Positions 10,600 through 60,210 of a DNA stretch of 64,000 nucleotides are shown piece by piece; the first letter of the stretch is position 1; the number at the start of each line of letters is the position of its first letter. The stretch is taken from assembly GCA_001730015.1 (NCBI GenBank), contig MDLA01000133.1:1-64000 (forward strand). Direction: 5' to 3'. Both the position numbers and the translations under genes were made by a program. Origin of the DNA: Chromatiales bacterium (ex Bugula neritina AB1). Lineage in GTDB: Bacteria > Pseudomonadota > Gammaproteobacteria > Granulosicoccales > Granulosicoccaceae. A model generated the notes under the pieces. That model worked only from the letters and a program-made list of their open reading frames with translations, was not told the DNA's origin and searched no databases.

Positions 10600-11841
10600 T
10601 TGATTATGAGAAGATTAAGATCGCGGGTTACGCATACCGTTGGTTTCGCCGTTTTATTGCTTCTGACCGGATCAATGGCAGTGGCTTCTCAGTCGATTGA
10701 GCTGGGGGCTCGCCCGGGCGAACTTATCAACACGCTGCCCCAGGGCAGTTTGCGTTCGAAACTTGAGTCGTGTGCGGCAAACCCGCCTGGCCGGTCATTA
10801 TTTTCAATCGGCCACCGCGGTGCGCCGCTGAAATTTCCCGAGCATACCCGGGAGAGTTATATTGCTGCCGCAGAAATGGGAGCAGGGATAATTGAATGCG
10901 ATGTCACATTCACTGCGGATAAAACTCTTGTTTGCCGCCACTCTCAGTGCGACCTCCATACCACCACCAATATACTGCAGACCCCGCTGGCGGCACAGTG
11001 CTCTACACCGCCCGATTTCAGCAGCAATACGCCTTTCAAGAATGTGAAATGCTGTACCAGCGATATTACGATCGCTGAATTTCAAACTCTCCGGGGTAAA
11101 GTCGATAGCGGCAACAAGAAAGCAAAAACGTTGCAGGAATATCTGTCACTTTCAGGAACACCGAAAGCCGCGCTGCAAGGTGTTACCGGTACGCTGATGA
11201 CACACAGGGAAAGTATTGAGCTGTTCCGTGATTTGGGCGTCAAAGTGATTCCCGAGCTCAAGAAACCTCAGGTCAGCATGCCGTTTGAAGGCGATTTTAC
11301 TCAGGAGCAATTTGCGCAGGCGCTGGTTGATGAGTACAAAAATGCGCGAATAGACCCAGCTGATGTATTTCTTCAGAGTTTCAACCTCAATGATGTACAC
11401 TACTGGCTCAGAGAGGAGCCGGAATTCGGCGGGCAAGCGGCCTGGCTTGATAGTCGGTACCGCGATAAAAGCTTCAGCCCGGCGAACAAGGAAACCTTTA
11501 CGCCGTCGATGGCCGAACTGGCCGAAAGCGGTGTTAAAATTATAGCGCCGCCACTGTGGATGCTGCTATCACTCAACGACGAAAAACGTATCGTACCTTC
11601 AGTGTATGCCATAGAAGCGAAGGCGGCTGGCCTCGATATAATTGTATGGACTCTCGAACGGTCCGGATCACTTAAAAACGGAGGAGGGTGGTACTATCAG
11701 TCGATAAAAGAAGCCATTTCAAATGAAGGCGATATCTATGCTGCGCTCGATGTTCTGGCTCAGCAGGTAGAAATTCGCGGAGCATTCAGTGATTGGCCAG
11801 CTACCACAACCTATTACGCCAATTGCATGGGTATTCAGTAG
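10600..11841 (+). CDS. glycerophosphodiester phosphodiesterase family protein, secreted
   Basis: IGHRGAPLKFPEHTRESYIAAAEMGAGIIECDVTFTADKTLVCRHSQ...; signal peptide; ATG at 10606 is an alternative start. Confidence 0.87.
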   Translation: MIMRRLRSRVTHTVGFAVLLLLTGSMAVASQSIELGARPGELINTLPQGSLRSKLESCAANPPGRSLFSIGHRGAPLKFPEHTRESYIAAAEMGAGIIECDVTFTADKTLVCRHSQCDLHTTTNILQTPLAAQCSTPPDFSSNTPFKNVKCCTSDITIAEFQTLRGKVDSGNKKAKTLQEYLSLSGTPKAALQGVTGTLMTHRESIELFRDLGVKVIPELKKPQVSMPFEGDFTQEQFAQALVDEYKNARIDPADVFLQSFNLNDVHYWLREEPEFGGQAAWLDSRYRDKSFSPANKETFTPSMAELAESGVKIIAPPLWMLLSLNDEKRIVPSVYAIEAKAAGLDIIVWTLERSGSLKNGGGWYYQSIKEAISNEGDIYAALDVLAQQVEIRGAFSDWPATTTYYANCMGIQ

Positions 11842-12001
11842 GTGGCTATCCAAGAATGAAAGATCTACTGCGGATGCGGTCTTTTGGCCAGCTAACGCGA
11901 TCAATTTAGTTGAATATGAATAACTATTCGCCAAAATCGATCGCGCTATCTGACTCAAAATCTCACAGCCTCGCTACGATCTTCATCCTCGGACAGCCAC
12001 C
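11841..12001 (+). repeat. RA dispersed repeat, copy 1a
   Basis: GGTGGCTATCCAAGAATGA...TCATCCTCGGACAGCCACC; ends form an imperfect inverted repeat; internal AAAGATCTACTGCGGA...TTTTGGCCAGCTA...TGAATAACTATTCGCC...ATCGATCG...CTCGCTACGA shared with the other copies. Confidence 0.88.
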
Positions 12002-29013: not shown

Positions 29014-29190
29014 TTACGCAGGTGGTATGTCCTGGTGGCTGCTTTAATTCACGGCAAGAGTTTTTACAGTGGAATTTCTTCTCGCGTCGAATACTTACTG
29101 ATATTTGCAAGAGAGAAAATTCTTTGTGGAATCAAAGATCAAGTGAGATTCCCAGGTGAGACTCTGTCAATCCCGTGAATAATGCGGGTT
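29014..29190 (-). repeat. RB dispersed repeat, copy A (MITE-like)
   Basis: Minus strand CCCGCATTATTCACGGGATTGACAGAGTCTCAC...ACTTGATCTTTGATTCCACAAAGAATTTTCTCTCTTGCAAATATCAGTAAGTATTCGACGCGAGAAGAAATTCCACTGT matches 53001-53170; far end diverged. Confidence 0.8.
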
Positions 29191-43479: not shown

Positions 43480-45099
43480 CTAGCTGGAGCAGGTGAGCAT
43501 TGTGCATCCAGGTCGCTGCGTCGCCCACTCGGGGCGGCGGCTGGCGTACTTCTCAAATTCCGGCTGCTCAGAGTAGGGGTTTTGCAGTACTGCCATGAGT
43601 TCTTCTATCACTGAGTAATCACCTTGCTCAGCCGCATCGATAGCTTGCAATGCCATATAGTTGCGCAGCACATATTTTGGATTTGTGCTGTTCATCAGCT
43701 TAGTGCGTTTGGATGGATCGATGTCAGCGACACGTGCGGCCCACTGCCCCAGCCATGTATTGAATGCCTCTATTGTTGTGTCGTCGAGCGGCTTGGAATC
43801 GTAAAACGCATCTGATATCACGGCCAGCATGTCAGTGGGTTTTTCCTGCCCGCCAGCTGCTTCTATCTGTGCCAGTTTACGGAAAAACAGGGTGTAGTCT
43901 GTTGCGGTGAGTTCGAGAGTTTCCCACAGCGAGTTATATAGTGCCTTGTCTGCTGGCTGTGGATCGGTAATTCCCAGTTTCGCGGCGACAGTGTTGTTCC
44001 AGATGTTGTCGTAGTAGTCGTTGTATGTTTCCAGTACTTCCTCAAGCGGCTTAGTATTGTTGTCGAATAAAGGTAGTATGGCGTTTGCCAGGCGGTATAG
44101 ATTCCATAGTCCAATCTGCGGCTGATTGCCAAAACTGTACCGTCGATTTTGCCGGTCGACGAAATTAGGTGTCCAGCGTGGGTCGTATTCTTCCAGCCAA
44201 CCGTAGGGACCGTAGTCGATAGTGTGGCCCAGAATAGACATGTTATCTGTGTTCATTACCGCGTGGACGAATCCGACACGTTGCCAGTGAGCCATCAGTT
44301 GTGCTGTTCGCTGAAGTATCTCTTGAAACCATTGCTGGTAAACATCCGGTCCCGGTTTACCCAGATGCGGGTAGTCACGGGTAATCACGTGATCGGCCAG
44401 GGCTTTTAGTTCGTCGTGCTCGTGGTGGGCTGCGTGAATTTCAAAGTTACCGAACCGGACAAACGAGTGCGCGGCACGACATAATATTGCGCCTTGTTCA
44501 GCTTGTACGTTGCCGTCGTAGAAGACGTCTCGATCGACACTGTCGCCGGTCAGACACAAGGTGAGCGATCGGGTGGTAGGAATGCCGAGGTTGTGCATAG
44601 CTTCGGAGCACAGATACTCTCTGACTGATGAACGCAGAACGGCAAAACCGTCGCCTTGTCGCGAGTAGGGTGTCTGTCCGGCACCTTTGAGCTGCAGCGT
44701 CCAGTGCTGCCCTTCCCGGTCCTGAATTTCACCGAGCGCTATGGCGCGACCGTCGCCCAGTTGACCGGCCCAGTTACCGAATTGATGCCCGCCATACCGC
44801 ATTGCATAGGGAGTTGATCCAGCTGCGACTTCACTGCCGGTGAAAAAACGGGCGCTGGCGTCGGGGGTACCTTGGATATTCAGTCCCAGACGCTTTTCCA
44901 TGTCTGCAGACCAGGCTATTAGTGTGGGCGCGCTGGGTACCGCCGGTTGCACTTCAGACCATATTATATGCTCCTGCTGGTGGTTGCAGTCGGCCGGTAG
45001 CGGTTTCCCGGGCAGGGCTTGCGTGAAAGCGTCAGTGAGATTGAGGCCTTGTATGCCGCTGTCTGCATCTTTGGCTGGTTGCTGTGGTTGTGTTTTCAT
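43480..45099 (-). CDS. selO: SelO (YdiU) family protein AMPylase, Cys form
   Basis: YGGHQFGNWAGQLGDGRAIALGE, LQLKGAGQTPYSRQGDGFAVLRSSVREYLCSEAM, FVHAVMNTDNMSILGHTIDYGPYGWLEEYDPRWTPN; C-terminus CTMLTCSS. Confidence 0.93.
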   Translation of the reverse strand: MKTQPQQPAKDADSGIQGLNLTDAFTQALPGKPLPADCNHQQEHIIWSEVQPAVPSAPTLIAWSADMEKRLGLNIQGTPDASARFFTGSEVAAGSTPYAMRYGGHQFGNWAGQLGDGRAIALGEIQDREGQHWTLQLKGAGQTPYSRQGDGFAVLRSSVREYLCSEAMHNLGIPTTRSLTLCLTGDSVDRDVFYDGNVQAEQGAILCRAAHSFVRFGNFEIHAAHHEHDELKALADHVITRDYPHLGKPGPDVYQQWFQEILQRTAQLMAHWQRVGFVHAVMNTDNMSILGHTIDYGPYGWLEEYDPRWTPNFVDRQNRRYSFGNQPQIGLWNLYRLANAILPLFDNNTKPLEEVLETYNDYYDNIWNNTVAAKLGITDPQPADKALYNSLWETLELTATDYTLFFRKLAQIEAAGGQEKPTDMLAVISDAFYDSKPLDDTTIEAFNTWLGQWAARVADIDPSKRTKLMNSTNPKYVLRNYMALQAIDAAEQGDYSVIEELMAVLQNPYSEQPEFEKYASRRPEWATQRPGCTMLTCSS

Positions 45100-45284
45100 A
45101 TAAGCCAGTATATAGGTTCGCTCATTCGGGTTTGCTAGAGCTTTCAGCTAAAGGATCGGTAATTGGCACGCGAAGATCCCAGTCTGCTTTGGTTAACATT
45201 ACAATGATCGATGTGTTGTAACGTTTTCGCTACAAATACACGGGTAGTGCTGGTACATTTGCGGGGTGAATCCGGAGTGTTAGT

Positions 45285-46040
45285 TTGCGCATTAAGCCAC
45301 TTATATCAGTTGCCTACCTTATTGCCGTGCCTGTGGTGCTGTTACCAGTGAGAGCAGTGGACAAGGTACCGGCGGATTACGGCGCATTGATCTCGCAATT
45401 GCAACTGCCGATACAGCACAACGCCAGAAGCTTGTCTGAGAATGAAGATCTTCTGCGGACGCGATCTTCTGGCCAGCTATTCCGATCAAATTCGTTAAAT
45501 ACGAATAACTATTCGCCTCAATCGATCGAAATATCTGACTCAGAACCACGCGCCCTCGCTTCGACCCCAATTCCCGGACAGGGTCCAGGCAGCTCAGCGG
45601 CGGTGGAGTACGTGCAGGCAGATGTGAAGGTTCAGGGAGTCCTTTCAACAACCGAATTACTGGCAGACTTAGCGGTCAAGGATAATACGGCTGAGGAAGC
45701 CACCTTAGCGGCACAGCCGTCTGAAAGTCCAAATGATAAAGAAGAAGTATGGGCCGAAATCAGCAATGCGATCGCAAGTCTGAATGAGATGGTGGGCGAC
45801 AAAATGTTCAGAGGCTTGCGGCGTACCAGTGAAAATAGAATGGATGTACGGTTGGATACGCACTATTGGCGCCGGGTGCTATACCAGACCCGTGTTGATC
45901 TCAAAAATGATATCAGCGATATCTGGCATCTGTATGTTTTGCAATACAATAACGACAACGCATCATCCGTTTTTTTTATCGATGACAGAACCGGGAAAAC
46001 GATCGATATATTTACCCGGACATCAGGCGGTAATCAGTAG
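45285..46040 (+). CDS. secreted hypothetical protein carrying an in-frame RA repeat
   Basis: N-terminal hydrophobic segment; continuous 251-aa ORF; residues ~49-101 (SLSENEDLLRTRSSGQLFRSNSLNTNNYSPQSIEISDSEPRALASTPIPGQGPG) are encoded by the RA repeat. Confidence 0.65.
   Translation: MRIKPLISVAYLIAVPVVLLPVRAVDKVPADYGALISQLQLPIQHNARSLSENEDLLRTRSSGQLFRSNSLNTNNYSPQSIEISDSEPRALASTPIPGQGPGSSAAVEYVQADVKVQGVLSTTELLADLAVKDNTAEEATLAAQPSESPNDKEEVWAEISNAIASLNEMVGDKMFRGLRRTSENRMDVRLDTHYWRRVLYQTRVDLKNDISDIWHLYVLQYNNDNASSVFFIDDRTGKTIDIFTRTSGGNQ
45431..45590 (+). repeat. RA dispersed repeat, copy 2, inside the coding region 45285-46040
   Basis: CTTGTCTGAGAATGAAGATCTTCTGCGGACGCGATCTTCTGGCCAGCTATTCCGATCAAATTCGTTAAATACGAATAACTATTCGCCTCAATCGATCGAAATATCTGACTCAGAACCACGCGCCCTCGCTTCGACCCCAATTCCCGGACAG. 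Confidence 0.88.
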
Positions 46041-46083: not shown

Positions 46084-47082
46084 CTATTTACGAGAGCTGA
46101 TGGTGCTTGTACCCGGTTCTGGAGTGGTAATTTCCAGTACAACGGCAAAGAGAATAAACATTGCTGCAATTACTTCTCTAAGTGATAACAGCTCCCCTGC
46201 GACGAGTGGGGCACTCACTCCGGCAACGAGTACTTCAGACATCATTAAAATCCCGACCCGACCGGGTGACAAGAGCTGTGCGCATCGAGCGCACACGTAA
46301 AGAGATGGAAGCACGATCAGTACATAAAAACCGAACAACCAGGGCAGGGCCTGCAGCCAGGCGGTTGCGGCTGGAATGCCGTAGCTGGATGCCGGGTTCG
46401 AGCTGGTTGCCCCCAGCATAAGAAATACAGCGCTTGCAGCAATAGCTGAGAGATATTGCAGAGGCACTATATCGAGTGCCTCAAGTTGCGGCGCTTTTCG
46501 AATTAGTACCATGGAGATTCCCCAGCTTATACCGGCTGCCAGGGCAGCCAGGTCGCCGATGTTGAGACTGGCTTGTGTGCCATCGGCCTTGGACAACATA
46601 ATCCACAGCCCGAAAAAACCGATGGCCATTGATATCCAGCGTCGAAAGCCTGCCTGTTCATTCAAAAAAACAATACTCAGCAGGGTTGACCAGATCGGGG
46701 TCATATAGAACAGCAGAGTAGTTCGCATCACGGTTGTGTGCAGGAAGCTGGTTGCATAGCTCGCCAGAGCGAAACCTGCTGTGAGTCCGATGAGAAGAAG
46801 GGCTGGGAAGTTACCGCTGAGCTTCTGATGCCGTACCAGCATGAGGGGCAGCAGAAACAGAAACGGCACGAAATAGATTGCGAAAACAGACCAGCCGCCG
46901 ACGATCCCCGCGGCTTCAATATGGCGCAGTGGTAGCCAGTACAAGCCCCAGAATGCTGCGGCGATAAATGCGGCAATACTGGGTTTGAGAGTGTTGCTGG
47001 TCGGCATAGAGCGATGTTGTCGGTGATCGGAATTGAGGGGAGGATGGTACGTCAGGCAGTTTGATATTGCTGAACGGTTCAC
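46084..47082 (-). CDS. EamA/DMT-family transporter
   Basis: AAFWGLYWLPLRHIEAAG, ten hydrophobic segments, LLFYMTPIWSTLLSIVFLNEQ; likely start MPTSNTLKPSIAAFIAAAFWG within the ORF. Confidence 0.85.
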   Translation of the reverse strand: MNRSAISNCLTYHPPLNSDHRQHRSMPTSNTLKPSIAAFIAAAFWGLYWLPLRHIEAAGIVGGWSVFAIYFVPFLFLLPLMLVRHQKLSGNFPALLLIGLTAGFALASYATSFLHTTVMRTTLLFYMTPIWSTLLSIVFLNEQAGFRRWISMAIGFFGLWIMLSKADGTQASLNIGDLAALAAGISWGISMVLIRKAPQLEALDIVPLQYLSAIAASAVFLMLGATSSNPASSYGIPAATAWLQALPWLFGFYVLIVLPSLYVCARCAQLLSPGRVGILMMSEVLVAGVSAPLVAGELLSLREVIAAMFILFAVVLEITTPEPGTSTISSRK

Positions 47083-51540: not shown

Positions 51541-52851
51541 TTGTTTAAACCCCGTGCGCAGACTTGCTATGCTGTAGTTTGTCGATTTTGTACGTATGGG
51601 TTATTGAAACCCTTAAGTTTTCACGGAGTGTTTATGGCTGGTCCGTTACGGTTCCTATTGCTGAATCTCGCCCATTTTCTTGATCACCTGTTCATGCTGG
51701 TATTTGCCACCGTGGCTGCGCTCGCATTGATATCAGAGTGGCAAATGAGTTACTCACAGCTGATTCCTTATGCAACACCGGGCTTTGTTGCGTTTGGTTT
51801 GTTCGCGCTTCCTGCAGGCTGGCTGGCTGATCGATGGGACCGTCACCTGATGATGGTGGTGTTTTTTACAGGTATTGGTTTATCTGCCGTGGCTACCGCA
51901 TTAGCAACATCGCCGCTGCAGATTGGCGTTGGTTTGTTCTGCATTGGTGTGTTTGCTGCGATCTACCATCCGGTAGGTATCGCGCTGGTTCTTGAAGGAC
52001 AGCAGCGTGCCGGTATTCGGGTCGCTGTCAACGGTGTGTGGGGAAATATGGGAGTAGCGGTCGCGGCATTGCTGACAGCGTATTTCATAGATACTGTTGG
52101 CTGGCGTGCCGCATTTGTGGTTCCGGGTGTTGTCTCCTGTCTGCTGGGTGTTTTGTACTGGTTTACGCTGCGGCTGACGGAGGCATCGGCAATAACTCAG
52201 TCACCGGGGAAGAAAAAACCGGTTATGCTGCTGGACAAAGCGATCCTTGTGCGTGTGCTTGCTGTAGTCTTTTTCACGACAGCACTCGGGGGCCTGGTGT
52301 TTCAGAGTACTACTTTTGCGTTGCCTAGAATCCTCGCTGAGCGGGTGAGCTCACTTGAGGGTGCGGCTACCCTGGTCGGGCAGATTGCATTTATGGCTTT
52401 TGCAGCCGGTTCCCTCGGGCAACTGATTGTTGGCTACCTGCTTGATCGGTGTTCTATTGCCTTTGTTTTTATGAGCGTTGCAGCGCTGCAAGTGCTGTTC
52501 TTTTCGATCGCCATTTTTGCAGAGGAGAAGGTAGCTATAGTTGCGGCCGTCGGTTACATGCTGGCCGCCTTCGGGCAAATACCAATAAACGATATTTTAA
52601 TCGGTCGAATAGCCGCGCCGGAACTACGCAGCCGTATTTTGGCTATGCGCTATACGATTACTTTTATTGTTATGGCGAGTACGGTGCCGTTGATCGCATG
52701 GATACATGCATCCCATGGTTTCGGACTACTGTTTAAGGTTCTCGCAATGGCATCTGCACTGATTTTCCTTGCAGTCTGTACACTGATTTCAACGGAACGA
52801 CAGCTAATTGGAGATACACTGACTAGTTCCCCGGAACCTGTCCGGGAATGA
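51541..52851 (+). CDS. MFS transporter
   Basis: Multi-TM; LPAGWLADRWDRHLMMVVFF; likely start MAGPLRFLLLNLAHFLDHLF (~51634); last codons (PVRE*) lie in RA copy 3. Confidence 0.88.
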   Translation: MFKPRAQTCYAVVCRFCTYGLLKPLSFHGVFMAGPLRFLLLNLAHFLDHLFMLVFATVAALALISEWQMSYSQLIPYATPGFVAFGLFALPAGWLADRWDRHLMMVVFFTGIGLSAVATALATSPLQIGVGLFCIGVFAAIYHPVGIALVLEGQQRAGIRVAVNGVWGNMGVAVAALLTAYFIDTVGWRAAFVVPGVVSCLLGVLYWFTLRLTEASAITQSPGKKKPVMLLDKAILVRVLAVVFFTTALGGLVFQSTTFALPRILAERVSSLEGAATLVGQIAFMAFAAGSLGQLIVGYLLDRCSIAFVFMSVAALQVLFFSIAIFAEEKVAIVAAVGYMLAAFGQIPINDILIGRIAAPELRSRILAMRYTITFIVMASTVPLIAWIHASHGFGLLFKVLAMASALIFLAVCTLISTERQLIGDTLTSSPEPVRE

Positions 52852-52991
52852 GTATCTACAGCAGACGCGATCTTCAGGTCAGCTATTGCGATTAATTTCG
52901 TAAACGTATGAATAACTACTCTCTGCAATCGACCGAAATATCCGACTCAATACCTCACGCCCTCGCTACGACCCTTATTCTCAGACAAGCT
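52837..52991 (+). repeat. RA dispersed repeat, copy 3
   Basis: CTGTCCGGGAATGAGTATCTACAGCAGACGCGATCTTCAGGTCAGCTATTGCGATTAATTTCGTAAACGTATGAATAACTACTCTCTGCAATCGACCGAAATATCCGACTCAATACCTCACGCCCTCGCTACGACCCTTATTCTCAGACAAGC. Confidence 0.88.
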
Positions 52992-53000
52992 TTTATCTAA

Positions 53001-53173
53001 CATTATTCACGGGATTAACAGGATCTCACTTGATTTTTGATACCACAGAGAATTTTTTCTCTTGAAAATATCAGTAAGCATTTGACGCGAGAAGAAAATC
53101 CACTGTGAAATCTCTTGGCGTGAATAGATCAGGTTGGCGCGATATCCTCGCCACCACTTGAATAATGCGGGCT
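53001..53173 (+). repeat. RB dispersed repeat, copy B (MITE-like)
   Basis: CATTATTCACGGG...TTGAATAATGCGGG: CATTATTCA (53001-53009) and TGAATAATG (53159-53167) are perfect inverted repeats; body matches copy A (29014-29190). Confidence 0.8.
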
Positions 53174-58011: not shown

Positions 58012-58175
58012 CAGGTGACTATCCGGGAATGCGGGGCGTAGCGAGGAAGTATGATTTTGAGCCGGAAATAGTGATCGATTGTGGCGAATAGTTATTTATA
58101 TTCAACTCAATCGACCGTAATTGCCGGCCAAAAGAACACATCTGCAGTAGATTATACATTCTCGCACAGACCCCT
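58012..58175 (-). repeat. RA dispersed repeat, copy 4
   Basis: Minus strand: GGGGTCTGTGCGAGAATGTATAATCTACTGCAGATGTGTTCTTTTGGCCGGCAATTACGGTCGATTGAGTTGAATATAAATAACTATTCGCCACAATCGATCACTATTTCCGGCTCAAAATCATACTTCCTCGCTACGCCCCGCATTCCCGGATAGTCACCTG. Confidence 0.86.
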
Positions 58176-60210
58176 AAGTGACGTTGCTTGAAGTACGTGT
58201 CGGGCTTGTCCATCGTCCGTTTGATTTGACGAAGAAAGCCATAGGAAGTGTTATTAAAAAATACAGAGCATCCAGCCATCGAAGCGCAAAGTAAAAAAGC
58301 CCGTGCCATAGCATGGCAGATATGCCTGTGATTCGGGCGACGATAACAGTACCAACATAGTCCAATCCAAAAAATAGTACCAGACCTGCGAAAAACACGC
58401 TGGGGCTTGTGTTCGGAAAAATAGCCGGCAGTGCGGCGTCTGTGATCATAGGTACTGCTGCGAGAAAGCCGAGCAAGGGCAGTATTACCAGTGCGCTGCT
58501 AATCACCAAAGATTCGAGCATGAAAAACAGCAGGGCTACAATGAAGCGGCTTTGCCAGAGACCGTGGCGGAGTACCGTTTGCCAGAACCCGAGGTGCCAG
58601 CGCTTGATCTGGCTGGTGTAGTCGCTAAAGGAATGGGGTTCGTGGCAATAGGCAGCGGCTTTTGGACTGTAAGCTATACGACCGAGTTGCTTTCGATGCA
58701 ATTCGAACGTCATATTAAAATCTTCTATAACGAGGCCTTCCGCTGCAATATCGATCTGCGGAATTATTTTAGTGCGGTAAATGCTGGAAAAACCGGGGAT
58801 GATAAAGCTGACATTGAGATGCCGCGTCGTTTGCCCGTAGCGCAGAAATGCTTGGGTAATCATGTATAGTTTAATTCGATAACTGATGAAAAATGAGCCA
58901 TAGCTGAGTGCTGTTTTTTTGTCCCACTTAGGGATTGCATGTCCGGCAACAGCAGAAACTTCCGGATCACTGAACAGCGGCAGTGCGTGACTCAGGTAGT
59001 CAGGATCTATCTCAGAGTCGGCATCGAGAATCAATAGAAATTCGAAATTTTCACATAATCGAAAGTGCCTGATTGCAGTTTCCAGGGCTCGTGCTTTACC
59101 CATGTTGTTTATCAGATTAATGCGATTGACCTGTAGTTGCGCCACGATATCACTCGTGTTGTCTTTTGATGCATCGTTAACTACAAACACATTCTTGCGC
59201 CCGACAAGCTTAATTGCCGACAGTATAGTGGGCCTGATGCCGGAGCCTTCATTGTAAGCGGGAATAAGGATTGCGACATGGCTGCGGTTGAATACGGTTG
59301 TCGAAGGATTAACTGCATTCGATACTGAACGGGTTGCCGTTCTTGTTGATGTCAGGTTTGCGATGGCAATCAGTAGCAAAAGGGGAATGCCAAGCGCCAC
59401 AGAGACGTATTCCAGGTTCCATGGCGACAACTGAGAGGCGTTGGGAGCAGCAGTTTGAAATTCGCTTGTTATGCCGAGCAGCAGGCTCGCGGGTACTATG
59501 AATAACAAGTGCTGGTACAATTTTAGTTGTCTGCCATTCAGGATGATGCTTATTAGATAGATGGGAAAAACGATTGCAAAGTAGAAATAAAAGGCGGTTA
59601 GTGTCAATGAACCATGTGCTGTCTGAGAGGATTTAGATGCTGCCGAGCTGAGGCTTGCATTGTCAATATAGCCACTTTGGAAAGTAAGCCAGGTAAGAAA
59701 GGAAAAGTAGCTGACCAGAACAGTAAGAACCAGTGCCTTGCTATTGAGCATACCGTGTGCAGGCTGACTCTTGTCTATGTCTTTGCCTGAGATCGAGGTC
59801 AAGTTTACCGCCAACAGAGCCGCCGGGAGTATCAACAGAAACCATGCAAGCGCACGTTGTAGGATCGGCGTCAGCGACCCCAGCCAATGTGACCCGTAAT
59901 ACCAGCAGTAGGTGCTGAACGCTGCTACCAGTACCACAGCCACGTGCGATAATTTACTGCCTCGTTTTTCAGATGGAACACTCAGTAGGAAATAGATGAC
60001 GAGGCCGGCAAGAACTGCAGAGTTTAACAAGGTTAATGCTGTCGAGTCCGAGGGCTTGCTAAGTGTAAATACCCCGACACTCAGTAGTAGTGTAGCGGTT
60101 ACAGCGTGGTTGCGATGGGACAGTTCAACTACATATCGCGCTATACCTATAATGCCCCAGAAGAGAAAATTCCAACTGACCAGAAGAGGAATGATGAGTA
60201 GAAATTTCAT
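58174..60210 (-). CDS. membrane glycosyltransferase family 2 with long N-terminal multi-TM region
   Basis: HVAILIPAYNEGSGIRPTILSAIKLVGRKNVFVVNDASKDNTSDIV, LLILDADSEIDPDYLS, EDFNMTFELHRKQLGRIAYSPKA, QIKRWHLGFWQTV. Confidence 0.9.
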   Translation of the reverse strand: MKFLLIIPLLVSWNFLFWGIIGIARYVVELSHRNHAVTATLLLSVGVFTLSKPSDSTALTLLNSAVLAGLVIYFLLSVPSEKRGSKLSHVAVVLVAAFSTYCWYYGSHWLGSLTPILQRALAWFLLILPAALLAVNLTSISGKDIDKSQPAHGMLNSKALVLTVLVSYFSFLTWLTFQSGYIDNASLSSAASKSSQTAHGSLTLTAFYFYFAIVFPIYLISIILNGRQLKLYQHLLFIVPASLLLGITSEFQTAAPNASQLSPWNLEYVSVALGIPLLLLIAIANLTSTRTATRSVSNAVNPSTTVFNRSHVAILIPAYNEGSGIRPTILSAIKLVGRKNVFVVNDASKDNTSDIVAQLQVNRINLINNMGKARALETAIRHFRLCENFEFLLILDADSEIDPDYLSHALPLFSDPEVSAVAGHAIPKWDKKTALSYGSFFISYRIKLYMITQAFLRYGQTTRHLNVSFIIPGFSSIYRTKIIPQIDIAAEGLVIEDFNMTFELHRKQLGRIAYSPKAAAYCHEPHSFSDYTSQIKRWHLGFWQTVLRHGLWQSRFIVALLFFMLESLVISSALVILPLLGFLAAVPMITDAALPAIFPNTSPSVFFAGLVLFFGLDYVGTVIVARITGISAMLWHGLFYFALRWLDALYFLITLPMAFFVKSNGRWTSPTRTSSNVT

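Follow-up and report, generated by a model that had tools for sequence, protein, structure and literature searches.

The insertion of MITE-like palindromes in frame into genes is a known type of event (PMC2229807, PMC2759123, PMC5896051, PMC10969869). The Rickettsia palindromic elements (RPEs) are palindromic repeats of about 105-150 bp that carry an open frame and insert in frame, and the product of the receiving gene is expected to stay functional (PMC2229807, PMC10969869). This has happened repeatedly, the first report listing 19 reading frames and R. conorii having close to half of its copies in frame (PMC2229807, PMC10969869). ERIC/RU-1 and YPAL/RU-2 are MITE-like hairpins of 127-168 bp that are mostly intergenic and whose open frames are occasionally fused to genes; the ends of ERIC carry TA (PMC2759123; PMC2229807). 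QMITE2 from Coxiella burnetii is a gammaproteobacterial hairpin MITE with about 50 copies, located mostly at the 3' ends of ORFs and in some cases in frame inside hypothetical proteins (PMC5896051). The R0, R2 and R6 families of Pseudomonas fluorescens are MITE-like inverted repeats found between genes (PMC2718517).

We analyzed a stretch of 64 kb (the window) from the 7.4 Mb draft genome of Chromatiales bacterium (ex Bugula neritina AB1) (G000). The window contains four copies of a repeat, here called RA, one of which lies inside a gene (Table 1). The first-pass annotation had placed this copy wholly within an ORF of 251 aa and had it translated without interruption. Both the ORF and the segment were confirmed, the latter with 54 residues. 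The body of this copy (copy 2) was matched at 45427-45585 (+) in a profile search, and the segment derived from it reads RSLSENEDLL...PGQGP.

Table 1. Features of the window that bear on RA copy 2 and its host gene
Feature	Position	Strand	Description
RA copy 1	11840..12001	+	intergenic; GDPD gene 10600-11841 has its native TAG stop at the border
SelO	43480..45099	-	conserved upstream neighbour, synteny anchor
Upstream block	45230..45259	+	CTACAAA...CTGGTACATT, common to the orthologues; probable promoter, a putative function
GGAG	45274..45277	+	probable Shine-Dalgarno, 7 nt 5' of the TTG start
Host gene	45285..46040	+	251 aa, TTG start; probable exported protein
N-terminus	45285..45362	+	signal-peptide-like, hydrophobic helix at residues 7-18, as read off the sequence
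RA copy 2	45424..45588	+	borders CCAG...CCAG; net length 162 bp (54 codons), giving residues 48-101
Native linker	45589..45728	+	variable, 3' of the insertion, low confidence (predicted disordered; alignment and AlphaFold2)
C-terminal domain	45729..46022	+	conserved alpha/beta domain, residues 149-246, block pLDDT 68-88
EamA transporter	46084..47082	-	conserved downstream neighbour, synteny anchor
RA copy 3	52833..52991	+	MFS gene 51541-52851 stops at a TGA within the copy
RA copy 4	58014..58175	-	GT2 glycosyltransferase gene 58174-60210 has its native TAG stop at the border

About 78 RA copies were surveyed in the genome by an iterated profile search (the stretches fetched first yielded 54, fragments included), a number that rests on the surveyed stretches. 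This recurrence is far beyond chance. In the aligned and oriented copies, RA is about 160 bp long, with a near-palindromic body, ends of CTAGGAGCCTGTCCGAGAATGA and its complement, terminal inverted repeats of about 20 bp and CTAG or CTGG at both borders. When the border bases were compared end to end against shuffles, the second base showed an excess of matches (p 0.016), the third less so (p 0.076) and the other two none, which is a weak indication of a target-site duplication. The net length from border to border was 163 bp in 22 of 44 copies and 162 bp in 17 of 44; the commoner 163-bp type shifts the frame. A transposase with matching ends was sought among the DDE_3 and DDE_Tnp_1 loci and through distant TIR pairs, and none was found. 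RA is small, present in high copy number and free of a transposase gene, with terminal inverted repeats and a covarying hairpin, as in MITEs. Since an autonomous partner was sought only among these two transposase families, we use the label "MITE-like".

RA and the RPEs are both palindromic and open-framed, and both have entered an existing gene in frame, whose product is expected to stay functional. They differ in host class, in the CTAG borders of RA and in frequency, as RA was found in frame in one of about 78 copies. The parallel to RPEs drawn in the first-pass annotation holds for the entry of a mobile palindromic repeat into a conserved gene whose orthologues lack it, but not for a recurrent habit across many genes; the RPE1 profile TIGR01045 found nothing in the genome, in a search run without a positive control. 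RA behaves as the RPE, ERIC, YPAL and QMITE2 fusions do, without belonging to the RPEs. ERIC/RU-1 and YPAL/RU-2 differ from RA in host range, and the borders of RA are CTAG-like. In sequence and ends these two families are unlike RA, and they are set apart here by description and not by alignment. QMITE2 is likewise a different element by description, and many RA copies at 3' ends coincide exactly with a TAG stop. The R0/R2/R6 families resemble RA in size and in their gammaproteobacterial hosts, a likeness drawn from description alone. Copy 2 offers a well-documented case, outside Rickettsia and the enterobacteria, of a mobile hairpin turned into part of a protein.

An orthologue survey was positive in 15 of 48 genomes. 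The orthologue is single-copy in all 14 genomes of the genus, the source genome included, and occurs in one genome of a sister genus. From the N-terminus it consists of a hydrophobic stretch, a linker of varying length and a conserved C-terminal domain. RA was inside none of 14 orthologues, which keep the start region and the domain, and the insertion was present in the source genome only. Twelve other genomes were examined for gene order: 11 have both SelO and EamA beside the gene, and the last has SelO alone. The GGAG motif also occurs at about the same position in the orthologues of G013 and G001. The gene of the source genome retains the conserved upstream block, the GGAG, the start position, the frame and the domain, and so shows no sign of being a pseudogene. 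A base-exact empty site was sought in comparison with the nearest relative, G013, and was not demonstrated because the linker of that relative is too diverged. G011, another genome of the survey, carries an RA copy some 120 bp ahead of the start of its orthologue (L014 2180-2351 / L129 6741-6912). This copy is an independent RA insertion at the same locus.

The C-terminal domain displayed 38 invariant columns in an alignment of 13 sequences. Its pN was 0.22-0.26 against a pS of 0.77-0.92 (clade-wide values, with synonymous change saturated), indicating purifying selection over the clade. In the AlphaFold2 model of the 251-aa protein, an N-terminal helix is followed by low-confidence, unstructured residues 55-146, which take in most of the RA part, and by the alpha/beta domain at 149-246. 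The RA segment itself had pLDDT <50 and no secondary structure, and is predicted to be disordered. No match to the 251-aa protein was found in Pfam or NCBIfam, and a fold search of the domain against PDB gave nothing below E 0.001. Kinship of the domain to a secreted protein and to T2SS pilotins (3npd, 6i2v) was considered and rejected, the resemblance being weak and not significant. The most that can be said is that the host protein appears to be a small exported domain on a long tether.

We consider it highly probable that copy 2 is a tolerated in-frame insertion of a MITE-like RA element, in a disordered linker of a conserved exported protein, that by chance fell in an open frame. RA would be a non-autonomous MITE-like hairpin inserting at CTAG-like sites, and transposition would have been its route into the gene. 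A frame-neutral copy of 162 bp would have entered the unconserved, disordered linker that joins the signal peptide of a genus-core exported protein to its globular domain, in the orientation and phase that happen to be the single stop-free ones. In the 162-bp type one of the six frames is open, and this is the frame used by copy 2. Being stop-free and frame-neutral, the insertion would leave a gene that still encodes its protein, with an unstructured segment of 54 residues added. This gene is presumably expressed, and the extra segment would be neutral, tolerated as a longer tether. Detection of a peptide such as SNSLNTNNYSPQSIEISDSEPR would prove translation of the RA segment. The case illustrates the conditions for such an event: the length must be frame-neutral, the element must lie in its only open frame and orientation, and the receiving linker must be disordered.

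The frames were inspected at every surveyed RA copy. Among the approximately 78 copies, 45285-46040 was the only instance in which an orthologue-supported frame runs on both sides of RA. A few other open passages (e.g. L096, L120), read without a homology test, look like chance frames, and no convincing in-frame insertion was found among the copies fetched from relatives. Roughly 7% of RA insertions into genes would be readable in frame, as estimated from one open frame in six and about 40% frame-neutral copies, and the linker of the host gene is a tolerant site. Nearly all surviving copies lie in intergenic stretches or precisely on TAG stops, presumably because selection usually removes insertions within genes. 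A terminal TAG exactly at the border was scored for 16 of the 120 long ORFs that face an RA border (one of them, L024, with a mislocated border). Border TAG stops were found on apparently intact genes at copies 1 and 4 of the window and at L029, L026, L035, L054, L065, L070, L072, L151, L156 and L161. Orthologues of the GDPD and glycosyltransferase genes end at about the same residue as the genes in the window, and the clpP, cysS, MTTB, DUF924 and FAA hydrolase genes at RA borders span to the end of their family profiles. Judged from these sequence comparisons, the border TAGs checked are native gene ends and not truncations. CTAG was counted 349 times against 1659 expected from base composition, being about 4.8-fold rarer, and among the 132 CTAG sites outside ORF interiors 25 are gene stops. 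Therefore, a preference for CTAG combined with the loss of insertions within genes suffices for the stop-codon pattern. The RA family thus provides a natural experiment on where such elements survive, between genes or on stop codons, in a genome in which CTAG is scarce.

The RA segment could instead have been recruited after insertion, being selected as a more hydrophilic spacer or as a binding segment, which we regard as unlikely. Measured against the consensus of its closest copies, copy 2 has 18 differences, none of them a stop or an indel, and the changes removed five hydrophobic residues while adding none (simulation P about 0.004-0.015). However, much of this variation, both Leu-to-Pro changes included, recurs in other, intergenic copies and is therefore probably older than the insertion. 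With this, the hydrophobic-to-polar excess dissolved, and selection on the inserted peptide was rejected. About six changes are private to copy 2 or nearly so, one of them synonymous, which leaves a selection test powerless. By chance, 18 changes would include no stop in about half of cases (P 0.48). Selection against the hairpin in the mRNA was also rejected, since the decay of the hairpin in copy 2 is as expected from random change and fits neutrality (P 0.44). No evidence for selection on the RA-derived peptide was found.

It is very improbable that a collapsed repeat was misplaced inside the gene by the assembler. The genome is a metagenome-derived draft of 207 contigs with an estimated contamination of 5.14%, and several contigs end within RA copies. 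Nevertheless, the repeat sits in one frame between the N- and C-terminal halves of the same orthologue, and the neighbouring genes on either side are conserved. The divergence of copy 2 from each of the other RA copies is at least 11%, which is not what a pasted consensus would show.

The remaining copies had been described as noncoding and carrying stops; the three others in the window are interrupted, but the description does not hold for the family in general, as 13 of the 17 full-length copies of 162 bp, copy 2 included, are open in the matching frame. That RA is itself coding, its peptide being maintained as a small protein or module and the insertion being a fusion, is nonetheless scarcely credible: many copies, those of relatives included, do share the open inner frame, but divergence was equal among codon positions (0.120, 0.121 and 0.131; 80 copies), synonymous changes in the copy-2 frame were in deficit (272 observed against 309 expected), a large share of copies carry a +1 indel near the 5' end and RA in other families is mostly closed in all frames, the lack of codon periodicity and the synonymous deficit indicating that the open frame is fortuitous.

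RA is not confined to the source genus. A pattern for both RA ends matched in 13 of 369 genomes of the class, G000 included, and an RA-type core was detected in 11 other gammaproteobacterial genomes from 10 other genera. A distant match lies on a plasmid of Pseudomonas sp. MPC6. These elements (L150-L162 except L154 and L158; L147) have the ends of RA and a covarying hairpin. Among 15 aligned elements, 26 of 53 pairs were changed on both sides, compared with 14.0 after shuffling and far lower values in all slid controls. This excess of paired changes indicates that the RA hairpin is maintained, as DNA or RNA. The Rfam covariance models gave no match at the gathering threshold (best E 4.2). RA was not named in the searchable literature, which is no proof of its being undescribed, and searches by element sequence returned unrelated papers only. 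We tentatively suggest, as a possibility somewhat short of even, that RA is an undescribed family of CTAG-bordered mobile hairpins across many families of Gammaproteobacteria, its asymmetric hairpin kept by compensatory changes, often placed on the TAG stops of intact genes such as clpP and cysS and rarely within proteins. If so, settling on TAG stop codons makes RA nearly harmless.

An element in G279 (L158 1487-1648), one of the 13 genomes matched by the end pattern, has the same CTAGGAGGCTGTCCGAGAAC ends with a different core, and may point to an insertion sequence mobilising the RA family. An insertion sequence with CTAGGAGSCTGTCCGAGAA ends, if found, would name the transposase that mobilises RA. 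At L020, L049, L060, L068 and L019, RA copies stand in tandem or close together, some with a common border sequence, and mixed ends (AGGTGG/AGGAGC) are also seen. These arrangements suggest that RA has inserted into older copies of itself and that copies have recombined. The window also contains a 103-bp inverted repeat pair, apparently unrelated to RA, at 53023-53125 and 29047-29149, the two arms being 89% complementary.
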